Shown here: positions 21,480 to 37,842 of the stretch, piece after piece | Position numbering within the stretch: position 1 is the stretch's first letter | How the letters are laid out: every line of letters starts with the position of its first letter | Assembly: GCF_000143885.2 (NCBI RefSeq) | Contig: NC_018581.1 | Span: 2,604,001-2,668,000 of the forward strand | DNA length: 64,000 nt | DNA from: Gordonia sp. KTR9 | GTDB lineage: Bacteria; Actinomycetota; Actinomycetes; Mycobacteriales; Mycobacteriaceae | Reading direction: 5' to 3' | Made by a program: the position numbers and the translations under genes | Notes under the pieces: model-generated | What the model was told of the DNA's origin: nothing | Database searches by the model: none | The model's input: only the letters and a program-made list of their open reading frames with translations

Positions 21480-22607
21480 TCAGTCGGTGTCGCCGGCCCA
21501 TTCCGGCGTCGACATCGCACCCCGCGCCACCACGGCGCGGGTGCGCATGTCGACGGCCTTGATGACACGCGTCATCGCGCCCATCGTGCCGGTGAGATCG
21601 TCGCGTCCGCTGAGGTAGCTGCGCTGGGCGGCGATGGGCATGGCGAAGAACGCCTCGAAGAAGGCGATGGTCTGCGAAGGACTCAGCCGCAGTAGCGCGC
21701 TGAGCCCGCGCAGACGGAGGTTGTGTACCGCGCGGGCGGACGACGGCCACAGCTCGGTGGCGGGGTCGCGACCCGAGGCAAGAGCGGTGACCACCGCGTC
21801 CGTGCACATCAGGGATGTCGCGACGCTGTAGCCGGTCGTCGGGTTCTTGAAACCACCCGCGGCGCCGAACCGGAAAGTGGGATCGCGCCACGGTTGTGGC
21901 GACGAGCCGGTCAGCGGGAAGTCGACGTGCTCGACCCGCAGGACCTCCGACGGCATTCCGCCCAGGCGGTCGGCGAGCCGCCGCTGGAGTTCGTCGAGGC
22001 CCAGCGCGGGGTATCCGGCGAGGCAGGTCTCTTCGAGGAGATACTCGCCCCCGCCGAGGGGTACGACGTACAGGAACGACGGCAGCGCCCGACGATGCTT
22101 CGCGCCGCCCCGCCAATCCATCAGCAGCGCTTCGTGTCCGGCCAGGATCGGCTCGGCGGTCCGGGCGCCGACGACGATCCCGTATGCGGTCTGCCGGGGT
22201 GCGTCGTGGGGGAGCGCACCACGACAGTCGACCACCGCCTCGCCGGTCAGGACCTTTCCGTCGTCGAGACGCACACGCGCACCGTCGATCTCGACTACGC
22301 GTGCGGCCACGGCCGGAACCCCGTCGAGGGTCAGCGACCGTTGCAGCCCGGGGGTGTCGAAGACGGTGTAGCCGCGGGCGATCTCCTCGAGGTCGCGACC
22401 CGCGACGCCGATGCGCGCGGTGCTGGCGGCGATCGCGGCCGGATCGATCCAGTCGGGCAGCTCGTCGGACCAGCAGGCGAACGTGGACCGCCAGATCCGC
22501 TCGGGAGACGGGTCGACGAGGGTCACGGACACACCCGCGCGTGCCAGCCGGTGCACGAGGGCCCGCCCGGCCGGCCCGGCCCCCGCGACGATGACTCCAG
22601 AACTCAC
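21480..22607 (-). CDS. crtL: Lycopene cyclase (CrtL/CrtY-type)
   Basis: FAD-dependent cyclase that forms beta-ionone rings from lycopene. 375 residues. The N-terminal dinucleotide fold VIVAGAGPAGRALVHRLARAG, the DCRGA segment typical of lycopene cyclases and GAAGGFKNPTTGYSVATSL near the C-terminus support this. GAAGGA lies 6 bp before the GTG at 22607. No other carotenoid gene is in the window, so its pathway partners must be elsewhere. It lies 58 bp after a short-chain dehydrogenase on the same strand. Confidence 0.85.
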   Translation of the reverse strand: MSSGVIVAGAGPAGRALVHRLARAGVSVTLVDPSPERIWRSTFACWSDELPDWIDPAAIAASTARIGVAGRDLEEIARGYTVFDTPGLQRSLTLDGVPAVAARVVEIDGARVRLDDGKVLTGEAVVDCRGALPHDAPRQTAYGIVVGARTAEPILAGHEALLMDWRGGAKHRRALPSFLYVVPLGGGEYLLEETCLAGYPALGLDELQRRLADRLGGMPSEVLRVEHVDFPLTGSSPQPWRDPTFRFGAAGGFKNPTTGYSVATSLMCTDAVVTALASGRDPATELWPSSARAVHNLRLRGLSALLRLSPSQTIAFFEAFFAMPIAAQRSYLSGRDDLTGTMGAMTRVIKAVDMRTRAVVARGAMSTPEWAGDTD

Positions 22608-22665
22608 ATCCCGTCCTTCGTCGCGGGCGGCGATCCGGACGGGCACGCGCCGTCGGGCAGGAGGC

Positions 22666-23466
22666 TCACGAACCGCCGGTGGCCAGCATGCCACCGTCGA
22701 CGGTGAGGGTTTCGCCGGTGATCCACGCCGACTCGTCGCTCGCGAGGAACGCGACGGCGCGGGCGACATCCTCCGGCTCGCCGATGCGCTTCAGCGGATA
22801 CGAATTCGCGACGCGTGCCTCGTTGTCGCCCTCGGTGAACACCGAGGCGAACTTCGTCCGCACGACCGACGGGGCGATCGCATTGACCCGGATGTTCGGT
22901 CCGAGCTCCCAGGCAAGTTCGGCGGTGAGGCGGATCAGCGCCGCCTTCGACGTGCCGTAGGCCGCGATCACACCGGTCGACCGCAGGCCCGCCACGGACG
23001 CGATGTTGACGATCGAACCGCCGGTGTCCTTCATCCCCGCCCGGTAGGCCTCCTGGACGAACCCCAGCGCGGCGACCACGTTGGTGTCGAAGGTCTTGCG
23101 GTACGCGGAGAGATCGGCGCCCATCAGCGGGCCGGCCAGCGGCGCGATGCCGGTGTTGTTGACGAGGATGTGGATACCGCCCTGGGCGACGGCCGCGGCC
23201 ACCGCAGCCGACCGGTCGTCGGCGTCACCTGTGTTGGCCGCGCACACCGAGACGGTCGCGCCGGGCACCGACTCACGAATCCGGCCGGCGGCCTCCTCGA
23301 GGGGCTCGGCCTTGCGGCTGGTGATGACGACCGAGGCGCCGCGCCGGGCGAGTTCGGTCGCGATCGCCTCTCCGATGCCGCGACTGGCGCCGGTGACCAG
23401 TGCCGAGCGGCCCGTGAGGTCGGAGGACTGGGGAAAGTTCTGCGGAATCGGTGTGGAGTGCGTCAC
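22666..23466 (-). CDS. Short-chain dehydrogenase/reductase (FabG-like)
   Basis: 266 residues, classical SDR. Cofactor motif ALVTGASRGIGEAIA, structural motif VNNTGIAPLAG (Thr where Ala is usual), catalytic Ser in NIASVAGL and YGTSK, and a C-terminal ITGETLTVDGGMLATGG typical of FabG-like reductases. Arg after the first Gly suggests NADPH preference. The substrate cannot be read; proximity to lycopene cyclase is not proof of a carotenoid role. I place the start at the GTG at 23466, preceded by GGAGC. It is divergent from the ABC-F gene. Confidence 0.82.
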   Translation of the reverse strand: MTHSTPIPQNFPQSSDLTGRSALVTGASRGIGEAIATELARRGASVVITSRKAEPLEEAAGRIRESVPGATVSVCAANTGDADDRSAAVAAAVAQGGIHILVNNTGIAPLAGPLMGADLSAYRKTFDTNVVAALGFVQEAYRAGMKDTGGSIVNIASVAGLRSTGVIAAYGTSKAALIRLTAELAWELGPNIRVNAIAPSVVRTKFASVFTEGDNEARVANSYPLKRIGEPEDVARAVAFLASDESAWITGETLTVDGGMLATGGS

Positions 23467-23560
23467 GCTCCACACCGTATCGGTCCACCGTGTCGCCGCG
23501 GGCGGAGTCGGTGGCGTCGCCGGCGATGAGCGCGTGGTCAAACCAGTGGCGCGGCACCGG

Positions 23561-23574: not shown

Positions 23575-25186
<1,612 letters not shown>

Positions 25187-25203
<17 letters not shown>

Positions 25204-26245
25204 TCGCGGCGATGACCAGGTCGGTACCGGCCCGGTCGGGCACCGTCAGCCGGTGTCCGTGACCGTCGAACTCCCGGCCGACGACTCCGGCGGACCGCAA
25301 CCGTCGACCGAACTCGATGCCGTCGGCACCCGGCACGTACAGGAAGTTGGCCTCGCTCGGCAGCGCCGGATGGCCCGCGTCGTCCAGGGCGGCGGCGAGA
25401 CGACCGCGTTCGCGGCGCATCGCCGTCACCCGGCCGGCCAGTTCGTCGGAGGCCGCGAGCGCGAGCGACGCCGCCTGCTCGGCGGCCGCGGTGATCGAGA
25501 AGGGGACTTCGTGGCGCCGCGCGCCGCGGATCGAAGTCGCCGATCCGGTCGCGTATCCGACACGCAGGCCCGCGAGGCCGTGGGCCTTGGAGAAGGTCCG
25601 CACCACGATCAGATTGGGATGCTCGGTCAGCAGCGTCCCGATGTCGGGCGCAGTCGAGCTGTACTCGATGTAGGCCTGATCGAGGATCACCGGAGTGGAC
25701 GCGTCGACGGTCGCCAGCAATCCCCGGATCTCGTCGTCGGTGACCACCGATCCGGTCGGGTTGTGGGGACTGCAGACGATGACGGCCGCGGTGTCGGAAC
25801 CGGCCGCCGCGGCGAGCGCGGTCATGTCGGGGCGCCCGTCGTCGAGCAGCGGGGTCGTGTCGAGCATCATCCCGATCATGTCGGCGAGCAGTGCGAAGCC
25901 CTCGAATGTCGGTGCCGGGGTGGCGATTCGAGGTGTCCGACAGCCCGCGGTCCGGAACCGCGCCGCCGAGTCCTGCAAAATCGCCGACAGAACCGCGGTC
26001 GCACCCGCGCCGATGGTGATGTTCTCTTCCTCCGAACCGATGTGCTCGGCGACGGTCGTCCGCAGGTGCTCGGGACGGAAGGACGGATAGTGGTGCGCGT
26101 CGGCCGAGTGGCGACGCAGTGCGGAGACGACGGCGGGAAGAGGTGGGTACGCGGACTCGTTCCGGTCGCATCGCACGATGTCCGTCGATCGCGTCAGCGC
26201 GTGCTCGAGGCCTGCACCCGTCGGATCGGGGAGGACGACGGTCAC
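25187..26245 (-). CDS. PLP-dependent aminotransferase, HisC/aromatic-type fold
   Basis: Class I/II (HisC-like) aminotransferase, 352 residues. Seen: Asn in CSPHNPTGS (about 162), Asp and Tyr in ILDQAYIEY (about 189 and 192) and the PLP lysine in VRTFSKAHGLAGLRVGYA (Lys220). The HisC-like family includes histidinol-phosphate and aromatic amino acid aminotransferases. Here it closes a four-gene overlapped cassette, so a role in supplying an aromatic 2-oxo acid, or aminating the product, is more likely than histidine synthesis. The GTG at 26245 overlaps the stop of the upstream ketosynthase-like gene by 4 bp (GTGA). Confidence 0.85.
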
Positions 26246-27270
26246 GAACGCCCGCTCCACCGGATCGCGCCGGCGGCGGCGAAGTCGCCCGCATGGGCGA
26301 ACGCCGACATCATCACGACGTCTCCGGGGCGGACGCGACCGTCGTCGATCGCCGCGTCGAGTGTCATCGGTATCCCGACCGCGAACAGGTTGCCGCACTC
26401 GTCGAAGGTGTCCGGATGTCTCGACTCGGGCAACTCGAGGGCCTCGCGCCAGTTGCGCAGGAAGATCCGGTTCGGCTGATTGGTGACGAGGACGTCCAGG
26501 TCGGCGGGTCGAATGCCGATCCGATCGGCCAGCGCGACAGCCACTTCCGGAACCATCCGGTTTCCGCGGGCCAGGACCTTCGCGATCTTCGCCTCGGTGA
26601 AGCCCACGTGGATCTGGCCCGGACCCGCCTCCCAGTACTTGCGCTCCGGCTGCGCGACGGCGGTCATGTCCGCCGAGAACTGGCCGAAGGACCGGGATTC
26701 GGTGCCCAGCACCGGGTTCCCCGCATCCCCGAGCGTCAGGGTCGCGACCGCCGCCCCGTCTCCGGGAATCGCGGCCTGCGCCTTCACGCGGACCTGCTCC
26801 TGGGTGAAGATCTGACCGGCGCTGTTCTGCGCCAACCCGATCAGGGCTTTGCGACCGCCGCCGGCGCGGAGGAGCGCGCCGGCGATCTCGATCAGATGGA
26901 CGAACGCGGCACAGCCGCCGTTGTGCACATCGAGCACGGTCCGCGGAGCGAGTCCGAGGCGGTGGGCGACCTCGCCCACGCACCCGCGGACCGGGACCTC
27001 CGGCAGCTGACTGTGGGTGAGCACGACGTCCACGTCATCGAGGTAACCGTCGCCGTGCCGGTCCTGGAGCCGGCGCGCAGCCGCGACGATCATGTCCGCG
27101 GAGGTCTCGCCTTCGGCCGCATGGTGGCGGAAGGCCGGTGCCCGGAACATGACGTTGTCGGCGAGTTCGTCGTCCTCGGCGAACTGCGCGAAGAACTCCG
27201 CGGGCACCCGTGCGGCGGGCCGGTAGGTGGCGAGATCGGCGAGGGCGACGGTCGGGGCGATCGCGGTCAT
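26242..27270 (-). CDS. KAS III (FabH)-like thiolase-fold enzyme with Asn in place of the catalytic His
   Basis: 342 residues, beta-ketoacyl-ACP synthase III fold. Compared with E. coli FabH, the nucleophile aligns to Cys120 (VLDVHNGGCAAFVHL) and the second Asn to Asn294 (ECGNLFAVGIPMTLD). The loop that is normally PHQANLR reads TNQPNRIF, so the catalytic His is Asn264. Family knowledge: the His-Asn pair drives decarboxylation of malonyl-ACP. Its loss suggests a non-decarboxylative acyltransferase or a condensing enzyme with another nucleophile. I place the start at the ATG at 27270, overlapping the upstream stop (ATGA); an ATG at 27282 is possible. Confidence 0.82.
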   Translation of the reverse strand: MTAIAPTVALADLATYRPAARVPAEFFAQFAEDDELADNVMFRAPAFRHHAAEGETSADMIVAAARRLQDRHGDGYLDDVDVVLTHSQLPEVPVRGCVGEVAHRLGLAPRTVLDVHNGGCAAFVHLIEIAGALLRAGGGRKALIGLAQNSAGQIFTQEQVRVKAQAAIPGDGAAVATLTLGDAGNPVLGTESRSFGQFSADMTAVAQPERKYWEAGPGQIHVGFTEAKIAKVLARGNRMVPEVAVALADRIGIRPADLDVLVTNQPNRIFLRNWREALELPESRHPDTFDECGNLFAVGIPMTLDAAIDDGRVRPGDVVMMSAFAHAGDFAAAGAIRWSGRS

Positions 27271-27932
27271 GAGCGCATCCATTCGGGGGTCAGCGGAAGT
27301 CCGTTGCGGTGGCGGTGTTCGGCGATGGCCGTGAGATTGTCGAGTTCGATCTGGTGTCCGGCGCCGAACATGTCCCACAGGTCGCCGACCCACTCCTCAC
27401 GACCGGCAGGCGCGGTGTCGGGGTACGGGTTCTCGTCGTAGAACGGGTGGTGGCAGTTGTTCCACAGGACCACCGAACCGGGGCGGTCGAGAACGAGCTG
27501 TGCGTCAACCACGCGCATCAGGTAGATCATCCACAGATGCTTTCCCTGATCCCACGCGCAGTGATAGTCGACGGTCATGGCGTCGGCGTTGGCCACCGTG
27601 CGGACGTAGATCTTCGTGTCCTCGTTCAGGCGATCGTGTCCGACCCACAGGCCCGGTTCCTCGGTTTCCGTGAAATCCCGTGTGCTGTAGGTCCATTCCT
27701 CGAGTGAACGCGTGTCGGCGAGCCACTCGAACAGTTCGCGGGGAGGTGCGTCGACGTATCCCTGGACAGGGCAGTAGTCGCCGAACACCTGGTGATGGGG
27801 ATACACCGAGCGGACCTTGTCGACGACGAGTGCGGTGTTGGCGGAGCGGGGGTGGGTCTCCACCCGGACCACGCCGTCGAGCGTGGCCGCGGTGTCCCCG
27901 AGGTCGGACAGGGCCGAGGAGTGCGTGGTCAT
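27267..27932 (-). CDS. SRPBCC (START/Bet v1-like) family protein
   Basis: 221 residues, soluble. The opening of the domain is clear: GDYCPVQGYVDAPPRELFEWLADTRSLEEWTYSTRDFTE. The beta-strand-rich middle (GLWVGHDRLNEDTKIYVRTV) and the C-terminal helix fit the hydrophobic-cavity SRPBCC fold used by polyketide aromatase/cyclases and ligand-binding proteins. It is rich in Trp, Tyr and His, which is unusual for a simple lipid binder. It overlaps by 4 bp with both neighbours (ATGA on each side), so it is translated with the ThDP enzyme and the ketosynthase. A cyclase role is inferred from context. Confidence 0.72.
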   Translation of the reverse strand: MTTHSSALSDLGDTAATLDGVVRVETHPRSANTALVVDKVRSVYPHHQVFGDYCPVQGYVDAPPRELFEWLADTRSLEEWTYSTRDFTETEEPGLWVGHDRLNEDTKIYVRTVANADAMTVDYHCAWDQGKHLWMIYLMRVVDAQLVLDRPGSVVLWNNCHHPFYDENPYPDTAPAGREEWVGDLWDMFGAGHQIELDNLTAIAEHRHRNGLPLTPEWMRS

Positions 27933-29695
27933 GGAGTGCCTCTCGCGATCAGTGGGGCGAACGGGGGTGCTTCGTCGGGATCGGCATTAACGACGATGCA
28001 ATTCGGTCCGGGACGCGACAGCAGCTCGTCGCACGCCGCACGCAGGGTCTCCAGGTCCGGGGCGGAGCGGACCGCCACGCCGGCGAACATCGCGTCGAGC
28101 CCGCCCGCGACGTCGGTGTGACGGAACCTGTTGACGCTCGGCGCGCCGGGGAAGAAGCGGGCCTCGCGGGTGACGCACATGCCGTGCGCGTCGTTGTTGA
28201 GGACGATCAGGGTGATCGGCGCGTCGTGTTCGATCGCGGTGTGGATCTCCATGCCGTGCATGAGAAACGAGCCGTCACCGGCGATGACGACGACCCGGCC
28301 GCCCGGGATGGGACGGCGCGCGGCGATCGCGGACCCGATTCCCGCGGCGATCGCCCACCCCATCCCGCCCATGCCCAACGCGACGACGAACCGGCCGACG
28401 CGGAACCGACCGTCGCCGAACGGGAGGTGGTGGATCGCCGCGGCACCGGTGTTCCCGGCGTCGGCGAACACCGCGCAGCCCGTGGGCAGGGCGTCGCCGA
28501 TGGTGACGAGCGCGTCCCGCATGCCGACAGCCGTCGCCGACGGGACGACCTCCAGATGCTCGATCGGATGGACCCGGGGTGGGCGAGGTCCGGGAACCCG
28601 GTCGGCGAGCGACCGGTGGATCGCGCCGACGGTGTCGGTGAGACGTTGCGTGGCGATGTGCTCGACGGCGGCCGCGGTGCGCGGCGGCGCGCCGCCGAGA
28701 TGGACGACCGGGATCGTCGCCAAGGCGTCGTCGAGGCCCGCGCGGTCCGTCATCGACATTCGGCAGCCGATCGCCAGGATCAACTGCGCATCGCGCACGG
28801 CCCGGTGTGCCGACGGATGTCCCATCACGCCGGTGACCCCGGAACACGACGTACGGCCGATGTCGCGGCCGCCCGGGGAGACCACGACAGCGGCGCCGAG
28901 GAGGCCCGCGAGATTGTCGACGGCATCCGCCAGCCCGAGCCGGGATGCTTCCTCGCCGGCCCAGATGCACACGGTCCCGCCGGCTCGCGACACCTCCGCG
29001 AGGCGGTCGGCGAGATCGTCGACCGTTGCGGCCGGTACCGATGCGAGGTCTGCCGGCCTCGCCGGTGGCGAATGTGCTTCGGTCCAGGGCGACGTCTGGA
29101 CGTCTTTCGGCAGGATCACCGCGGCCGGTAGCCCCCGCGCCGTGGTGGCGAATGCCTCGTCGAGGACGCCGTCGAGACGGGAGGGCTCGTCGACCAGCCC
29201 GCAGAAGCCGACCACGCCGGACAACACGGCACGCAGGTCGACGGTGTCGGGCGGGTCGAGCATGTCCTGGAACCCGCCGCGTCCCACCGCGGGTGTCGGT
29301 GCCGAACCGATCAGGGCGATCACCGGAACGCGGCTGTCGTAGGCCTCGCCCAGTGCCGGTACGACATTGAGTGCCCCGCCGCCCGACGTCGTCAGGACCG
29401 CGGCCGGCTCACCGGTGAGCCGCGTGTGCCCGTCGGCCATCGCGCCGGCGCCGAACTCGTGCTTGGCGACGACCGGGGCGAGTCGCGGGTGCCGCACGGC
29501 CGCGTCGAAGACGTCTTCGATGTTGGCGCCGTGGACGCCGAAGGCGGTACGCACACCGGCGTCGACCAGTCGTGCGACGACCCGGTCGGCCACCGTAAGA
29601 GCCGTGTGCCCGTCTCGCGCGTTCAAACCCTGTACTCCCAGCCCCGAACCGTGGTGCGGCACCGGTCGATTCGTCGATGTCCGAACATCGGACAC
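27929..29695 (-). CDS. ThDP-dependent acetolactate-synthase-like enzyme
   Basis: 588 residues, three-domain ThDP enzyme. The activating Glu is in VAKHEFGAGAMADGHTRLTG (Glu80). The ThDP/Mg motif is IAGDGSFLMHGMEIHTA (about 471-487), ending in LIVLNNDAHG (Asn500-501). It resembles acetolactate synthase and benzaldehyde-lyase relatives, but it sits apart from any ilv gene and starts a cassette with SRPBCC, KAS III-like and aminotransferase genes. The likely role is C-C bond formation between a decarboxylated 2-oxo acid and an acyl partner. The GTG at 29695 has no good ribosome site; a promoter and a palindromic box directly upstream suggest a leaderless transcript. Confidence 0.85.
   Translation of the reverse strand: MSDVRTSTNRPVPHHGSGLGVQGLNARDGHTALTVADRVVARLVDAGVRTAFGVHGANIEDVFDAAVRHPRLAPVVAKHEFGAGAMADGHTRLTGEPAAVLTTSGGGALNVVPALGEAYDSRVPVIALIGSAPTPAVGRGGFQDMLDPPDTVDLRAVLSGVVGFCGLVDEPSRLDGVLDEAFATTARGLPAAVILPKDVQTSPWTEAHSPPARPADLASVPAATVDDLADRLAEVSRAGGTVCIWAGEEASRLGLADAVDNLAGLLGAAVVVSPGGRDIGRTSCSGVTGVMGHPSAHRAVRDAQLILAIGCRMSMTDRAGLDDALATIPVVHLGGAPPRTAAAVEHIATQRLTDTVGAIHRSLADRVPGPRPPRVHPIEHLEVVPSATAVGMRDALVTIGDALPTGCAVFADAGNTGAAAIHHLPFGDGRFRVGRFVVALGMGGMGWAIAAGIGSAIAARRPIPGGRVVVIAGDGSFLMHGMEIHTAIEHDAPITLIVLNNDAHGMCVTREARFFPGAPSVNRFRHTDVAGGLDAMFAGVAVRSAPDLETLRAACDELLSRPGPNCIVVNADPDEAPPFAPLIARGTP
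29678..29694. promoter_or_regulatory. 17-bp palindrome at the start of the ThDP gene
   Basis: TGTCCGA-ACA-TCGGACA, perfect 7-bp arms around 3 bp, covering codons 1-7 of the ThDP gene. It could be an operator or an RNA hairpin that gates initiation. Its function is unknown. Confidence 0.45.
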
Positions 29696-29707: not shown

Positions 29708-29726
29708 TTAGCTTAGCGTAAGCTAA
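29708..29726. promoter_or_regulatory. Palindromic DtxR-like box in front of the four-gene cassette
   Basis: TTAGCTTAGCGTAAGCTAA: 8-bp arms TTAGCTTA/TAAGCTAA around GCG. It is similar in length and outline to the IdeR box but with C/G changes at symmetric positions. It lies 12-31 bp upstream of the GTG at 29695, where it would block the promoter. Its 15-bp part CTTAGCGTAAGCTAA recurs with one change at 33054. Confidence 0.7.
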
Positions 29727-29768: not shown

Positions 29769-31322
29769 TCAGCCGACCGGCGTCTCCGGCCAATACCGCT
29801 TGCGCAGATCGCCTTTCACGAGCTTTCCGGTGGGCGTACGAGGTAGGTCGTCGACGAAGTCGACCGATCGAGGCGCCTTGTACGCCGCGATGTTGTCGCT
29901 GGTGAACGCGATCAGTTCCTCGGCGAGCCGATCGGTGGGCTCGATGCCGTCGGCGAGCTGGACGCACGCCTTCGCAACCTCGCCGAGGTCGGCGTCGGGA
30001 ACGCCAATCACCGCGACATCGAACACCGCGGGGTGGTTGATGAGGACGTTCTCGGCCTCCTGCGGATAGATGTTGACGCCGCCGGAGATGATCATGAACG
30101 CCTTGCGGTCGGTCAGGTACAGATAGCCTTCGTCGTCGACATACCCGACATCGCCCGTGGTGGACCAGTTCTCGTGCTCGGGGTGCTGGGCCTTGCGGGT
30201 CTTGTCCGGGTCGTTGTGGTACTGGAAGGCCACCTCCTCGCGTTCGAAGTACACCTGGCCGACCTCACCGGTCGGCAGTTCCCTGCCGTCCTCGTCGCAG
30301 ATGTGGACCACGCCGAGGAGCGGTTTGCCCACCGAACCCGGATGATCCAGCGCCTCCTGCGGACCGATGAAGGTCGCACCGGCGGCCTCGGTCGACGCGT
30401 AGTACTCGTGGATGACCGGTCCCCACCACTCGATCATCGCGCGCTTGACCTCGACGGGGCACGGTGCGGCGGCGTGCACCGCCACCTTGAGGCTGCTGAC
30501 GTCGTACTTCGTGCGGACGTCGGCGGGGAGCTTGAGCATCCGGATGAACATGGTGGGAACCCACTGGCTGTGGGTCACGCGGTACTTCTCGATGGCGGCG
30601 AGGGCCGCCTCGGGATCGAACCGGTCCATCATGACGACGGTGCCGCCCACCGAGTTCGTCATCCCGCAATAGCGCAGTGGCGCAGCGTGATACAGCGGCG
30701 CGGGGGAGAGGTAGACGGCGGTGTCGTCGTAGCCGTACATCGGCGCGAAGATCGCGGTGTAGGCGTCGGGCACCTGGTCGACCTGCCCCTCCGGCATCGG
30801 TGTCTTGATGCCCTTCGGGCGTCCGGTGGTCCCGGAGGAGTAGAGCATGTCGGTACCGCGCGGCTGGTCGGTGCGCGGCTCGGCCGACGCATTGGCCAGG
30901 ACCTTGTCGTAGCTCTCGAAGCCGTCGAGGTCTCCACCCCAGACGACGCGTCGCCCCGGACCCGCCAGTGCCTCGATCTCCCCGGACGCCGCCACGGCGT
31001 CGACGACGGATGCGCCGGCGAACAGGACCTGCGCGTTGCAGTCGGAGAGGATGTAGTTCGTCTCGGCTGCGGTGAGATGGTGATTGACGGCCGTCACGTA
31101 CAGGCCGCTGCGCAGTGCCGCCCAGTACACCTCGAAGACGTGGAAGTCGTTGGCCGAGACCACGGCGATGTTGTCACCGCGCCGGAGGCCCAGTGACTCG
31201 AGATAGTTGGCGAGCCGGGTCGAGTTCTCGTCCAGCTGGCGGTAGGTCAGTTCCTCACCGGTCGCGGCACGGATGACGGCCGGCTTGTCGGGAGTGGATT
31301 TCGCGAAGACTCCAGGGAACAA
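29769..31322 (-). CDS. AMP-dependent acyl-CoA ligase/synthetase (FadD-like)
   Basis: ANL-superfamily enzyme, 517 residues, that activates a carboxylic acid as acyl-AMP and normally transfers it to CoA. Seen: P-loop LYSSGTTGRPKGIK, the acyl-pocket motif YYASTEAAG, hinge STGDVGYVDDEGYLYLTDR and the catalytic lysine in RTPTGKLVKGDLRKR. I place the start at the TTG at 31322 because AGGAG (31331-31335 on this strand) lies 8 bp upstream; a GTG at 31355 has no ribosome site and falls in a long palindrome. The gene lies upstream of the ThDP cassette but has its own control region, so it may or may not feed the same pathway. Confidence 0.85.
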   Translation of the reverse strand: MFPGVFAKSTPDKPAVIRAATGEELTYRQLDENSTRLANYLESLGLRRGDNIAVVSANDFHVFEVYWAALRSGLYVTAVNHHLTAAETNYILSDCNAQVLFAGASVVDAVAASGEIEALAGPGRRVVWGGDLDGFESYDKVLANASAEPRTDQPRGTDMLYSSGTTGRPKGIKTPMPEGQVDQVPDAYTAIFAPMYGYDDTAVYLSPAPLYHAAPLRYCGMTNSVGGTVVMMDRFDPEAALAAIEKYRVTHSQWVPTMFIRMLKLPADVRTKYDVSSLKVAVHAAAPCPVEVKRAMIEWWGPVIHEYYASTEAAGATFIGPQEALDHPGSVGKPLLGVVHICDEDGRELPTGEVGQVYFEREEVAFQYHNDPDKTRKAQHPEHENWSTTGDVGYVDDEGYLYLTDRKAFMIISGGVNIYPQEAENVLINHPAVFDVAVIGVPDADLGEVAKACVQLADGIEPTDRLAEELIAFTSDNIAAYKAPRSVDFVDDLPRTPTGKLVKGDLRKRYWPETPVG

Positions 31323-31352
31323 GGGTGGCGCTCCTCGTGACGAAGGGATGGT

Positions 31353-31389
31353 CACCCCGAACGACCGTATCTAACGATCGTTCGGGGTG
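31353..31389. promoter_or_regulatory. Long inverted repeat upstream of the acyl-CoA ligase
   Basis: Perfect 12-bp arms CACCCCGAACGA (31353-31364) and TCGTTCGGGGTG (31378-31389) around 13 bp; the inner part of the right half contains a second palindrome, AACGATCGTT (31373-31382). The layout fits a TetR-family operator at the ligase promoter. The regulator is not identified. Confidence 0.65.
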
Positions 31390-31434: not shown

Positions 31435-33048
31435 TCAGTGCGTCGCGAGAAACCTGTCCATGGTGCGTTCCGCGAGGGCGGTGATCGTCAGCGCGGGATT
31501 CACCAGACCCACGGCGCCCGGCACGAACGAGCCGTCGACGACCCACAGGTTGTCGTACCCGCGTACGCCGCCGTCCATGTCGGCCGCTGCGCCCATCACC
31601 ACGCCGCCGAGTCCGTGATACGTGCTCGCGGAACCGAATCCGAGCGCACGCGATGATATGTGAGTGCCGTTCGCGCGGAAGCCGAAGCGGCCCTCGGTGC
31701 GTTCGTGGAACCGTGCGATGAATGCATTGCTGCGGCGGTCGAGATCATTGCGGTCGGCCGGGTGGGGGTAGTTCAGCTGTGCGCGCCGCGTGCGGTGGTC
31801 GTAGTCGATCGTGCCGCGCTCGTCGGTGTGTGCCTGCACCAGGTGGGTGGTCGCGGCCTTGCCGAGCGGGGCGGGCAGCGGGGTGGCCTGATAGACCATC
31901 GAGACCGGCCCGCCGGGCAGATCGTCCTCGTAGATCCGGGCGTAGCCCGGTCCGCCCTGGACGGCACCGAAGTCCTCGCGCGGGTTCGCCCGGATGGTGA
32001 GGAAGTCGCCGTTCACGCCGAAGCCGTCACCGATGCGCGACGACAGCCGTGGCAGGCGCCCCTGGGCGCGGGCCTCGACGAGCAGCCGGGTGGTGTGGAA
32101 GGAGCCCGCGGCCATGAAGAGATGATCGGCCTCGCTGGTCACGGTGCGTACCGTGCGCCCCTGTTCGTCGAGAACCCTTGCGGTGACGACGAATCCGGCG
32201 CGCCGCGACCGGGGCCGGATGTCGAAGACCTCGTGCATCGGCTTGACGGAGACGTTGCCGGTCCGTTCGGCGGCGAGGAGGTAGCTGCGGTCGAGTGACT
32301 TCTTGGCGCCGCTGTTGACTCCGTAGCTGAGTTCGCCGGCGGAGACCGACGGGGTGGCCCGGCCGGCGAGTTCGTCGCGGACGATGTCCCAGTCGATGGC
32401 GAAGTCGAAGAAGTGCGGTGACGCCCCGTAACGCTCGATGACCTTGAGCCACGAGCGGGCGCCGACGTACTTGGGATGGGCGAGGATGTCCGCGGGCAGC
32501 GGCGAGACGCCGAGCCCCGCCTTGGCGCGCGGGTAATAGGTCTGGGCGAGCTGCGCGTAGTCCGCGGCCGCCGGGAAGATGTGGTTGAAGTCCTGGCGGC
32601 GGGGGACGGGCGTGAACGAGCCGAAGACGAGTGACCCGCCACCCACGCCCGCGCCGTACACGGCCTCGACGCCGTTGCCCATCACGTGGTCGAGAACACC
32701 GGGGTACGGCTCGACCGGGATGCCGCTCGCCGCACTTGCGCCGGCCGGGCTGCCGAACCACGCCGCGCGTTTGTCCGGATTGGTCGTCGTGGCGAAGGTG
32801 TTGCCGTCCGGGCGGATCGGCCAGCGGCGACCGCGCTCGAAAACCGTTGTCTTGTATCCGGCCTCGCCGAGGCGTCGGGCCGCCACCGCGCCGCCGAAGC
32901 CGGTGCCGATGACAATCGCGGTCTGCCCCGGCGCCGCCTGCGCCGGAGTCGTGGTCGCGCCGAGCGCGGCGAGGGCCCCGACGCCGGCCGCGGAGCGCAT
33001 GAGGGTCCGGCGAGAGACTGCCGGACCGGAATTGTCGTAGTTCACCAC
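31435..33048 (-). CDS. Exported GMC flavoprotein, cholesterol-oxidase-like
   Basis: 537 residues. A twin-arginine signal (SRRTLM near residues 12-17, hydrophobic stretch, AQAA about 36-39) predicts Tat export of the folded flavoprotein. The FAD site is TAIVIGTGFGGAVAARRL. Extended similarity to class I cholesterol oxidase is visible in NPDKRAAWF, PYPGVLDHV, GVGGGSLVFG and the C-terminal GYDNLWVVDGSFVPGAVG. Catalytic His and Asn align to His478 and Asn517, but the Glu of the known enzymes (361 in the Streptomyces protein) aligns to Gln387. The substrate is therefore uncertain: a sterol or another hydrophobic alcohol. The start is the GTG at 33048; a DtxR-like box overlaps its promoter. Confidence 0.85.
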   Translation of the reverse strand: MVNYDNSGPAVSRRTLMRSAAGVGALAALGATTTPAQAAPGQTAIVIGTGFGGAVAARRLGEAGYKTTVFERGRRWPIRPDGNTFATTTNPDKRAAWFGSPAGASAASGIPVEPYPGVLDHVMGNGVEAVYGAGVGGGSLVFGSFTPVPRRQDFNHIFPAAADYAQLAQTYYPRAKAGLGVSPLPADILAHPKYVGARSWLKVIERYGASPHFFDFAIDWDIVRDELAGRATPSVSAGELSYGVNSGAKKSLDRSYLLAAERTGNVSVKPMHEVFDIRPRSRRAGFVVTARVLDEQGRTVRTVTSEADHLFMAAGSFHTTRLLVEARAQGRLPRLSSRIGDGFGVNGDFLTIRANPREDFGAVQGGPGYARIYEDDLPGGPVSMVYQATPLPAPLGKAATTHLVQAHTDERGTIDYDHRTRRAQLNYPHPADRNDLDRRSNAFIARFHERTEGRFGFRANGTHISSRALGFGSASTYHGLGGVVMGAAADMDGGVRGYDNLWVVDGSFVPGAVGLVNPALTITALAERTMDRFLATH

Positions 33049-34064: not shown

Positions 34065-34631
34065 TCAGTCGAACGCGCGCACGGACTCTTCGACGAGGTC
34101 GAGCACGGCGTGTAGGTCGTCGGTGGGCTGTCCGGTCGCCAGCCGGGTGATCAGGCCGTCGAGCACCAGGTCGAGATAGTTCAACAGGACGTCCGTCGGC
34201 ACGTCGTCGCGCAGGCGCCCCGCCTGGCGGCCGCGTTCCAGCCGGTTGAGTGTCGCCTGCTCGACCTCGGCCGAATAGGATACCCACTCCGCCCGGAAGC
34301 TGTTGTCCGTCCGCAGTTTTCGTGCGATCTCCAAGCGCGTCCCGAGCCAGTCGAAATCCTGCGGCCGGGTGAGCATGTCGCGCATGACCTGCACCAGACC
34401 CTGCTCGGCCGCCACATCGGCCATCCGTTCGGCGTCCTCACGCGCGAGAGCGAGGAACAGCGCTTCCTTATCCCGGTAGTGATGGAAGATCGCACCCCGG
34501 GACAAGCCGGTGGACTCTTCGATCCGTTTGACGGTCGCGCCGTCGTATCCGTACTCCGCGAAGCAATGCCGCGCGCCGTCGAGAATCTCCCGACGACGCG
34601 CGGCAAGCCGGTCATCGCTGACCTTGGGCAC
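34065..34631 (-). CDS. acnR: AcnR, TetR-family repressor of aconitase
   Basis: 188 residues. The N-terminal TetR helix-turn-helix is TVKRIEESTGLSRGAIFHHYRDKEALF. The all-helical C-terminal half ends VLDLVEESVRAFD. It lies 15 bp downstream of acn on the same strand, the same arrangement as acn-acnR in Corynebacterium glutamicum, where AcnR represses acn. AGGAGG lies 8 bp before the GTG at 34631. A site matching the AcnR consensus lies in the acn promoter region at 37647-37668, supporting the assignment. Confidence 0.9.
   Translation of the reverse strand: MPKVSDDRLAARRREILDGARHCFAEYGYDGATVKRIEESTGLSRGAIFHHYRDKEALFLALAREDAERMADVAAEQGLVQVMRDMLTRPQDFDWLGTRLEIARKLRTDNSFRAEWVSYSAEVEQATLNRLERGRQAGRLRDDVPTDVLLNYLDLVLDGLITRLATGQPTDDLHAVLDLVEESVRAFD

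Positions 34632-34646: not shown

Positions 34647-37842
<3,196 letters not shown>

Follow-up and report, generated by a model that had tools for sequence, protein, structure and literature searches.

Does a compact set of four genes in Gordonia sp. KTR9 encode a carbazole pathway, a relative of one, or something else? The window, by which we mean the whole stretch of 64,000 nucleotides that was analysed (contig NC_018581.1, positions 2,604,001 to 2,668,000, in a genome of 5.89 Mb, G000), carries on its minus strand genes for, in order, a thiamine diphosphate (ThDP)-dependent enzyme, an SRPBCC protein, a condensing enzyme resembling beta-ketoacyl-acyl carrier protein synthase III (KAS III) and a pyridoxal phosphate (PLP) aminotransferase; we refer to these four genes as the cassette. 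A sequence-only reading had described a same-strand set with a 4-bp start/stop overlap at each junction, and the open reading frames and overlaps are found where it placed them (ATGA at 27929-27932, ATGA at 27267-27270 and GTGA at 26242-26245). It had further proposed a compact version of the carbazole pathways that would be new in a Gordonia-like genome. Our comparisons reveal instead a widespread sister-type pathway, which is not a Gordonia oddity and, because its condensing enzyme lacks the Cys-His-Asn triad of CqsB1/NzsJ (it has Cys120-Asn264-Asn294), not strictly a carbazole cluster. We consider it reasonably probable that the cassette specifies a ring-forming pathway of the CqsB kind, inherited for the most part vertically in the Mycobacteriales, in a clade beside the known carbazole enzymes.

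Relationship of the cassette to the carbazole enzymes

In carquinostatin biosynthesis, according to the account in PMC7466098, CqsB7 yields indole-3-pyruvate, the ThDP enzyme CqsB3 joins this to pyruvate, the KAS III-like CqsB1 adds an acyl unit with decarboxylation and CqsB2 cyclises; the published carbazole pathway also uses a dedicated acyl carrier protein (ACP) and a second KAS III (PMC7466098). The likeness between the cassette and the cqs/nzs systems (CqsB7, CqsB3/NzsH, CqsB1/NzsJ and CqsB2/NzsI) lies in the co-location of the same four functions and in the shared cyclase fold, and to this extent the carbazole analogy of the sequence-only reading is borne out. The cassette nevertheless differs in gene order (ThDP-cyclase-KAS-aminotransferase, against KAS-cyclase-ThDP-...-aminotransferase in cqs/nzs), in the Cys-Asn-Asn residues of its KAS and the Asp100 of its cyclase, and in that its four genes include no ACP, second KAS III, prenyltransferase or P450.

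The SRPBCC protein has no match in a Pfam scan. It matches the CqsB2 structures 6ipv and 6ipw with a phmmer E value of 8.4e-47, and the top fold match of its AlphaFold2 model (mean predicted local distance difference test score 70.7) is again CqsB2 (6ipv_A). Residues D100, Y137, Y165, H193 and E196 of the window cyclase align with E105, Y144, Y172, H206 and E209 of CqsB2, the five proposed catalytic positions, so that four are identical and one Glu has become Asp. The sequence-only reading had suggested this comparison with the CqsB proteins, and had allowed for the closest characterised homologues turning out to be an unrelated catabolic set; the nearest characterised relatives that we found are biosynthetic.

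The partner enzymes are more distant. The ThDP protein matches PF02776, PF00205 and PF02775, reaches no NCBIfam model at cut-off among the 25 of 54 matches listed, and shows 31-32% local identity (29% over the alignment) to the ThDP genes of four carbazole loci. Its top matches in the PDB are BbmA and CsmA; a literature search on these returned nothing relevant among the open-access matches listed, and we do not apply their names to the ThDP enzyme. The KAS protein matches PF08541 above and PF08545 slightly below cut-off. For the aminotransferase the top NCBIfam model, PRK03321, is below cut-off; we gave up a claim of orthology for this protein, and claim similarity alone, because its tree has long branches and an uncertain root. 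Mean identities between the window proteins and those of the carbazole loci are 29% (ThDP), 41% (cyclase), 27% (KAS) and 39% (aminotransferase, three loci), while the corresponding values against three Mycobacterium loci are 41, 69, 57 and 37%.

Four loci of our collection (L171-L174) are true carbazole-type clusters, with cyclases 82, 98, 97 and 71% identical to the CqsB2 stretch. Three of these (L171-L173) share families assigned by eye to a phytoene-synthase-like prenyltransferase, an isopentenyl diphosphate isomerase and TrpD; they also hold a second KAS III-like gene and an 80-aa gene taken as an ACP from its size and place only. Clusters of NzsJ/I/H homologues have already been noted in S. 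cattleya, Sorangium and Scytonema in section 4 of the published account (PMC7466098).

Other known systems also resemble the cassette in part. In the xenocyloin (Xcl) pathway a ThDP enzyme works with KAS III-like partners, and to our knowledge this pathway has no SRPBCC cyclase. The likeness to scytonemin (ScyA/ScyC) and furanolide (CybE/CybF) biosynthesis is a ThDP enzyme that joins two oxo acids, and the ScyC model matches the window cyclase only faintly (E value 4e-4; 19.8 bits, far under the cut-off of 400). ScyA is described as joining 4-hydroxyphenylpyruvate to indole-3-pyruvate (PMC9822442), and in the furanolide pathway, as reported, CybE is the ThDP enzyme and CybF starts with a decarboxylative O-acylation (PMC13288894).

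Clade-wide changes in the condensing enzyme and cyclase

The two active-site changes in the window hold across its relatives. In the column of the KAS III catalytic His, Asn is found in 108 of 109 clade members (80 of 81 for L031-L110 with the window, 16 of 16 Streptomyces and 12 of 12 further loci) and His in all four carbazole loci, while all 109 retain the Cys of the Cys120 column and 108 of 109 the Asn of the Asn294 column. Likewise, the column of CqsB2 Glu105 holds Asp in 109 of 110 clade cyclases and Glu in the four carbazole loci, and the other four catalytic residues are identical in 114 of 114; all of these counts may take in decayed copies. Because the clade carries the KAS Asn and the cyclase Asp, its chemistry may differ from the carbazole route, and for the same reason the cassette is not simply a compact carquinostatin set, as had been proposed.

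Trees were built from 43 of the 114 cyclase rows and from 43 KAS rows with three FabH sequences. The four carbazole rows fall on one side of a branch with a support of 100 in the cyclase tree and 98 in the KAS tree; in these trees the cassette enzymes make up a clade next to that of the characterised carbazole enzymes. We claim no branching order for CqsB1 and FabH because the KAS tree was flagged for long branches that meet.

Distribution, gene order and decay

A protein search returned 1140 relatives, and those named among the 120 matches listed belong to Gordonia, Nocardia, Rhodococcus, Mycobacterium and its kin, and one Streptomyces. Genome samples show the same spread: the cyclase is matched in 41 of 397 genomes across the order (37 of them in the family of the window), in 14 of 396 across the phylum and in 29 of 343 of a Streptomyces-type genus sample. 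The Gordonia sample has a match in 34 of 59 genomes and the Mycobacterium sample in 107 of 158 (100 of the 146 of good quality), decayed copies included; the cyclase is also found in Nocardia, Tsukamurella and Rhodococcus, and the Gordonia lacunae protein shares 96% identity with that of the window. The cassette is therefore widespread in the Mycobacteriales and present in Streptomyces too, and the supposed novelty to Gordonia falls away. No description of the cassette in Mycobacteriales appeared in the excerpts of the open-access PMC literature matches listed.

Gene order had been suggested as a point to survey, and it is not limited to the window. Among 97 loci in which the ThDP, cyclase and KAS genes are all intact (the four carbazole loci excluded), the order ThDP-SRPBCC-KAS is contiguous in 90 and the aminotransferase comes next in 77. 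Junctions are tightest near the window: 4-bp overlaps occur at the three junctions in 16, 19 and 18 of 19 Gordonia/Williamsia-type loci (one of them from a metagenome-assembled genome carrying another label), which is beyond chance, and in 0, 5 and 10 of 32 Mycobacterium loci, the remainder having short gaps. Pairwise distances of the four proteins co-vary (rho 0.53 to 0.91, with permutation maxima of at most 0.29; 13 of 114 loci, whose genes were absent, truncated or of odd length, did not enter the matrices), and part of this is shared inheritance because all four proteins follow host descent. The cyclase tree mostly tracks host groups and is not purely vertical, as Tsukamurella is nested in the Gordonia group.

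Several Gordonia copies of the cyclase are fragmentary or interrupted. In the Mycobacterium set at least four are partial or interrupted, of which two, in single-contig genomes of 3.3 Mb, are full of stops. Because the cassette is absent from many complete genomes and has decayed copies, it is dispensable. In a collection of plasmids the cyclase was found in six records, two of them larger than 2.6 Mb. A solitary gene of the CqsB2 family (L176) lies in 19.5 kb that contain neither a ThDP nor a KAS match; the same genome (G239) carries a cassette at another locus (L177).

A putative SigL-like promoter in Mycobacterium and Nocardia

At the 35 Mycobacterium loci taken from named contigs, the anti-sigma factor gene rslA precedes the ThDP gene by no more than 300 bp in 23 cases and by about 5.7 kb in 10, and in the other 2 it is beyond the end of the contig; in 32 of the 35 a MarR gene comes no more than 161 bp after the aminotransferase gene. 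In Nocardia, sigL-rslA lies 0.75 to 2.65 kb upstream at 13 of 15 loci, without a MarR gene, and rslA was not seen at one Antrihabitans and two Rhodococcus loci. At one Mycobacterium locus (L067) Pfam and NCBIfam models confirm an extracytoplasmic function (ECF) sigma factor, a zinc-finger anti-sigma factor and a MarR protein; judged by the adjoining genes, which we read from their sequences as secY, adk and map, this trio would be SigL, RslA and the Rv0737 orthologue.

A strict motif, TGAACC-N(14-18)-CGT within 300 bp upstream, stands ahead of the ThDP gene at 21 of the 33 Mycobacterium loci (all with N16; L059 and L080 were set aside for missing upstream DNA) and at all 16 Nocardia/Antrihabitans loci. 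Other genes at the same loci carry it in 14 of 492 cases in Mycobacterium and 0 of 250 in Nocardia/Antrihabitans, and a looser TGAAC form is present at 16 of 17 Mycobacterium loci of the adjacent type and 8 of 10 of the distant type (27 of the 33 scanned). In the remaining groups the strict motif stands at 1 of 16 Streptomyces, 2 of 4 second-copy and 2 of 7 other loci, and it is missing from the 2 Rhodococcus, the 4 Tsukamurella-type and the 4 carbazole loci. Upstream of sigL it is present at 16 of 31 loci in Mycobacterium and 5 of 15 in Nocardia, and a looser version at 25 of 27 and 9 of 14 respectively, which might fit an autoregulated ECF factor. We take TGAACC-N16-CGT to be the published SigL consensus; a printed version was not found among the open-access literature matches listed, and the support for the motif comes from its conservation and from the regions upstream of sigL. 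The likeness to a SigL regulon thus consists in the position of Mycobacterium and Nocardia cassettes at sigL-rslA together with this element, and the control of these cassettes looks SigL-like, from a promoter that appears to be of the stress type. The difference is that all 18 Gordonia/Williamsia-type loci tested lack the strict motif (0 of 5 in Gordonia A, window included, and 0 of 13 in Gordonia B/Williamsia-type).

Eleven of the 14 motif matches at other Mycobacterium genes belong to one divergent gene family, which in L067 encodes an ATP-binding cassette (ABC) transporter ATPase. This ATPase and an FtsX-like permease form a pair (4975-8159 of L067) divergent from the cassette, and the ATPase family has the motif in 11 of the 11 Mycobacterium loci that possess it; because it carries the same TGAACC-N-CGT element, the transporter pair may share control with the cassette.

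Published work describes RslA as a redox-sensitive zinc anti-sigma factor (PMC2877774) and reports that a sigL mutant shares a low-iron growth defect (PMC10449499). In M. tuberculosis the MarR gene Rv0737 is described as directly following sigL-rslA, and its position varies elsewhere (PMC13002591); by that gene order the cassette would be absent between rslA and Rv0737 in M. tuberculosis.

A conserved palindrome in the Gordonia group of the window

The metal-type operator of the sequence-only reading survives in part: the 19-bp palindrome is there and is conserved, and its metal-type label is unproven. The sequence, TTAGCTTACGCTAAGCTAA, is the sole exact site in the window genome by pattern scan. 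At up to one mismatch it occurs in 8 of 59 Gordonia genomes, once in each, and seven of the eight sites are identical. Six of these seven lie between the acyl-CoA ligase and ThDP genes, the seventh is at a contig end with the ligase side visible, and the eighth site (G074) is located elsewhere. The seven genomes are those whose cyclase is at least 82% identical to that of the window, and the next two (81%) lack the site. From this placement and conservation, the palindrome is probably the operator of the cassette, and in the Gordonia group of the window it stands in place of the SigL-like element. Its outline is IdeR-like, and it differs from the IdeR consensus at two symmetric positions. A metal operator could not be confirmed, as the genome of the window has one exact site and a control pattern scored likewise: one site with two mismatches was found elsewhere in this genome, and the reversed pattern also gave one site per strand.

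Proposed pathway and competing explanations

The comparisons document the homology, the catalytic residues, the conserved order with its overlapping junctions, the active-site changes of the clade and the promoter and operator motifs; every substrate, the product and control through these motifs are predictions. In the predicted scheme the aminotransferase would convert an aromatic amino acid, in all likelihood tryptophan, to its 2-oxo acid (indole-3-pyruvate in that case), and the pathway would join this oxo acid (probably tryptophan-derived) to another oxo acid and to an acyl unit. The KAS III-like enzyme would couple the intermediate of the ThDP stage with an acyl thioester, with loss of CO2, and the SRPBCC protein would take the unstable product into its cavity, where it would close and aromatise the ring. 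The predicted product is an alkylated carbazole-type catechol or quinone, or a close variant.

Several observations weigh against a CqsB-like ring-forming pathway. The KAS and ThDP enzymes are just 27-29% identical to their carbazole counterparts, the clade-wide His to Asn and Glu to Asp changes set both key enzymes apart from the four carbazole loci, and neither the cassette nor the ligase and GMC genes beside it include a dedicated ACP or a second KAS III. The structural model of the cyclase is of intermediate quality, and its Foldseek comparison with CqsB2 gives a TM score of 0.53 and a root-mean-square deviation of 17.8. The aminotransferase gene is not next to the KAS gene in 20 of 97 loci, and the window aminotransferase is 37% identical to a paralogue in its own host, equal to its identity with the Mycobacterium cassette aminotransferases. 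A TrpB-like gene is linked to the cassette in 4 of 6 Tsukamurella-type loci and was not seen at the 109 further loci scanned, so that these cases are confined to one genus type, and the strict promoter motif is missing from 12 of 33 Mycobacterium loci.

The alternative that survives best, although we think it unlikely, is that the same machinery acts on another aromatic oxo acid (phenylpyruvate or 4-hydroxyphenylpyruvate) and makes a non-carbazole acylated ring system. The aminotransferase falls in the HisC/aromatic group, which does not fix its substrate, and the related enzymes ScyA (PMC9822442) and CybE (PMC13288894) are described as taking other oxo acids; moreover, the ThDP enzyme and the aminotransferase diverge most of the four proteins, and do so jointly (rho 0.91), as expected if substrates vary. 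Against this, the CqsB2 positions proposed for closure onto the indole are kept, one of them as Asp, and the TrpB-like gene is linked in the Tsukamurella-type loci.

It is more improbable still that the Asn-type KAS O-acylates its substrate rather than carrying out a decarboxylative C-C condensation, which would lead to acyloin esters or furanone-type products on which the SRPBCC protein acts. The loss of the catalytic His throughout the clade would suit such a role, as would the opening O-acylation by CybF in the furanolide pathway (PMC13288894) and the indole-acetyl ester isomers obtained in NzsJ assays, which the authors attributed to rearrangement (PMC7466098). However, the Cys and Asn of the KAS active site are almost invariant, the cyclase retains its proposed carbocyclisation residues, and the substrate could still be held by an Asn in place of the His. 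It is very improbable that the cassette is an unrelated operon of catabolism or primary metabolism with no more than a resemblance to the carbazole set: the frequency of the cyclase in Mycobacterium and its host-following tree are unusual for a specialised pathway, and a FadD-like ligase and a GMC oxidoreductase adjoin the cassette in the window, but the cyclase is specific for CqsB2, the cassette is patchy, decayed in places and dispensable, and the cyclase occurs in the plasmid collection.

If the four genes do encode a CqsB-like ring-forming pathway, about two thirds of the sampled Mycobacterium genomes and more than half of those of Gordonia, by cyclase match and with decayed copies included, hold an uncharacterised pathway of this kind, whose enzymes differ consistently from the characterised carbazole enzymes, and the cassette would be a compact four-gene system for the study of cofactor-free carbazole-type cyclisation. 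The sigL locus of mycobacteria would gain a concrete metabolic output, which could account for the Rv0737 orthologue that is reported to adjoin rslA in M. tuberculosis and to vary in position elsewhere (PMC13002591). More tentatively, we propose a history in which an ancestral pathway of mycobacteria and related genera makes a carbazole-like, redox-active and possibly lipid-tailed metabolite through the Cys-Asn-Asn KAS and the cyclase, is switched on by the redox-sensitive SigL-RslA system in Mycobacterium and Nocardia, has decayed in the two 3.3-Mb genomes, would be absent from this place in M. tuberculosis and was rewired to a new operator in Gordonia; this fuller account is possible and somewhat doubtful.

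Locus boundaries and associated genes

The outer limit of the cassette had been set at 29695, which is indeed the furthest start (GTG) of the ThDP reading frame. A TTG at 29626 has GGGAG just upstream, and the stretch 29626-29695 is, by eye, weakly conserved in Gordonia lacunae and Gordonia sp. OPL2; because of this poor conservation the TTG appears the likelier start.

Table 1. Coordinates of the cassette and of adjoining features in the window.
Feature	Position	Strand	Remarks
ThDP-dependent carboligase, acetolactate synthase fold, CqsB3/NzsH-like	27929..29626	-	565 aa; alternative GTG start 29695
SRPBCC / Bet v1-like cyclase, CqsB2-type	27267..27932	-	221 aa
KAS III-like condensing enzyme	26242..27270	-	342 aa; Cys120-Asn264-Asn294 vs KAS III Cys-His-Asn
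PLP aminotransferase, HisC/aromatic type	25187..26245	-	352 aa; PF00155
19-bp palindrome TTAGCTTACGCTAAGCTAA, probable cassette operator	29708..29726	.	conserved in Gordonia subset
FadD4-like acyl-CoA ligase, upstream of palindrome	29769..31355	-	PF00501, PF13193; PRK13390 and FadD4 models below cut-off
GMC-type oxidoreductase	31435..33048	-	PF05199; goes with cassette in Gordonia group of the window

The GMC oxidoreductase gene lies upstream of the cassette in L031, L032, L037, L041, L046 and L050. Two of these are degraded: in L041 (9684-10004; G. oryzae copy 2) and L050 (G. effusa) at most a remnant of the ThDP gene was seen and an aminotransferase gene was not found, while the GMC, cyclase and KAS genes persist. 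The link of the FadD4-like ligase to the pathway is uncertain; its candidacy as the acyl donor is weakened because in L037 and L046 the ligase adjoins an ABC-F gene and is about 4 kb from the cassette.

Gene content varies further afield. A cassette-type aminotransferase was not found in six Tsukamurella-type loci (five by tblastn, L231 by annotation). The second copies L184 and L185 lack the aminotransferase gene and are followed by the same gene families, which downstream of L184 include genes for an ACP, a fatty acyl-AMP-ligase-like protein (best model below cut-off), MmpL and two methyltransferases; in L175, genes for an ACP, a 3-hydroxy-3-methylglutaryl-CoA synthase-like protein and an enoyl-CoA hydratase come after the KAS gene. 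In ten Streptomyces loci (L155-L164) one gene family lies just upstream of the ThDP gene, and its member in L156 has a DJ-1/PfpI and AraC-type regulator architecture.

In the window, an ABC-F gene (23575-25203) lies on one side of the cassette, and a TetR-type regulator (34065-34631) and an aconitase (34647-37772) on the other. We take this order to be that of mycobacterial Rv1473-Rv1475c, and because the flanks match it the cassette seems to have been inserted in a conserved ABC-F/TetR/aconitase block. Beside the ABC-F gene lie a short-chain dehydrogenase/reductase gene (22666-23475) and, at 21480-22769, a gene for a lycopene-cyclase-like flavoprotein.

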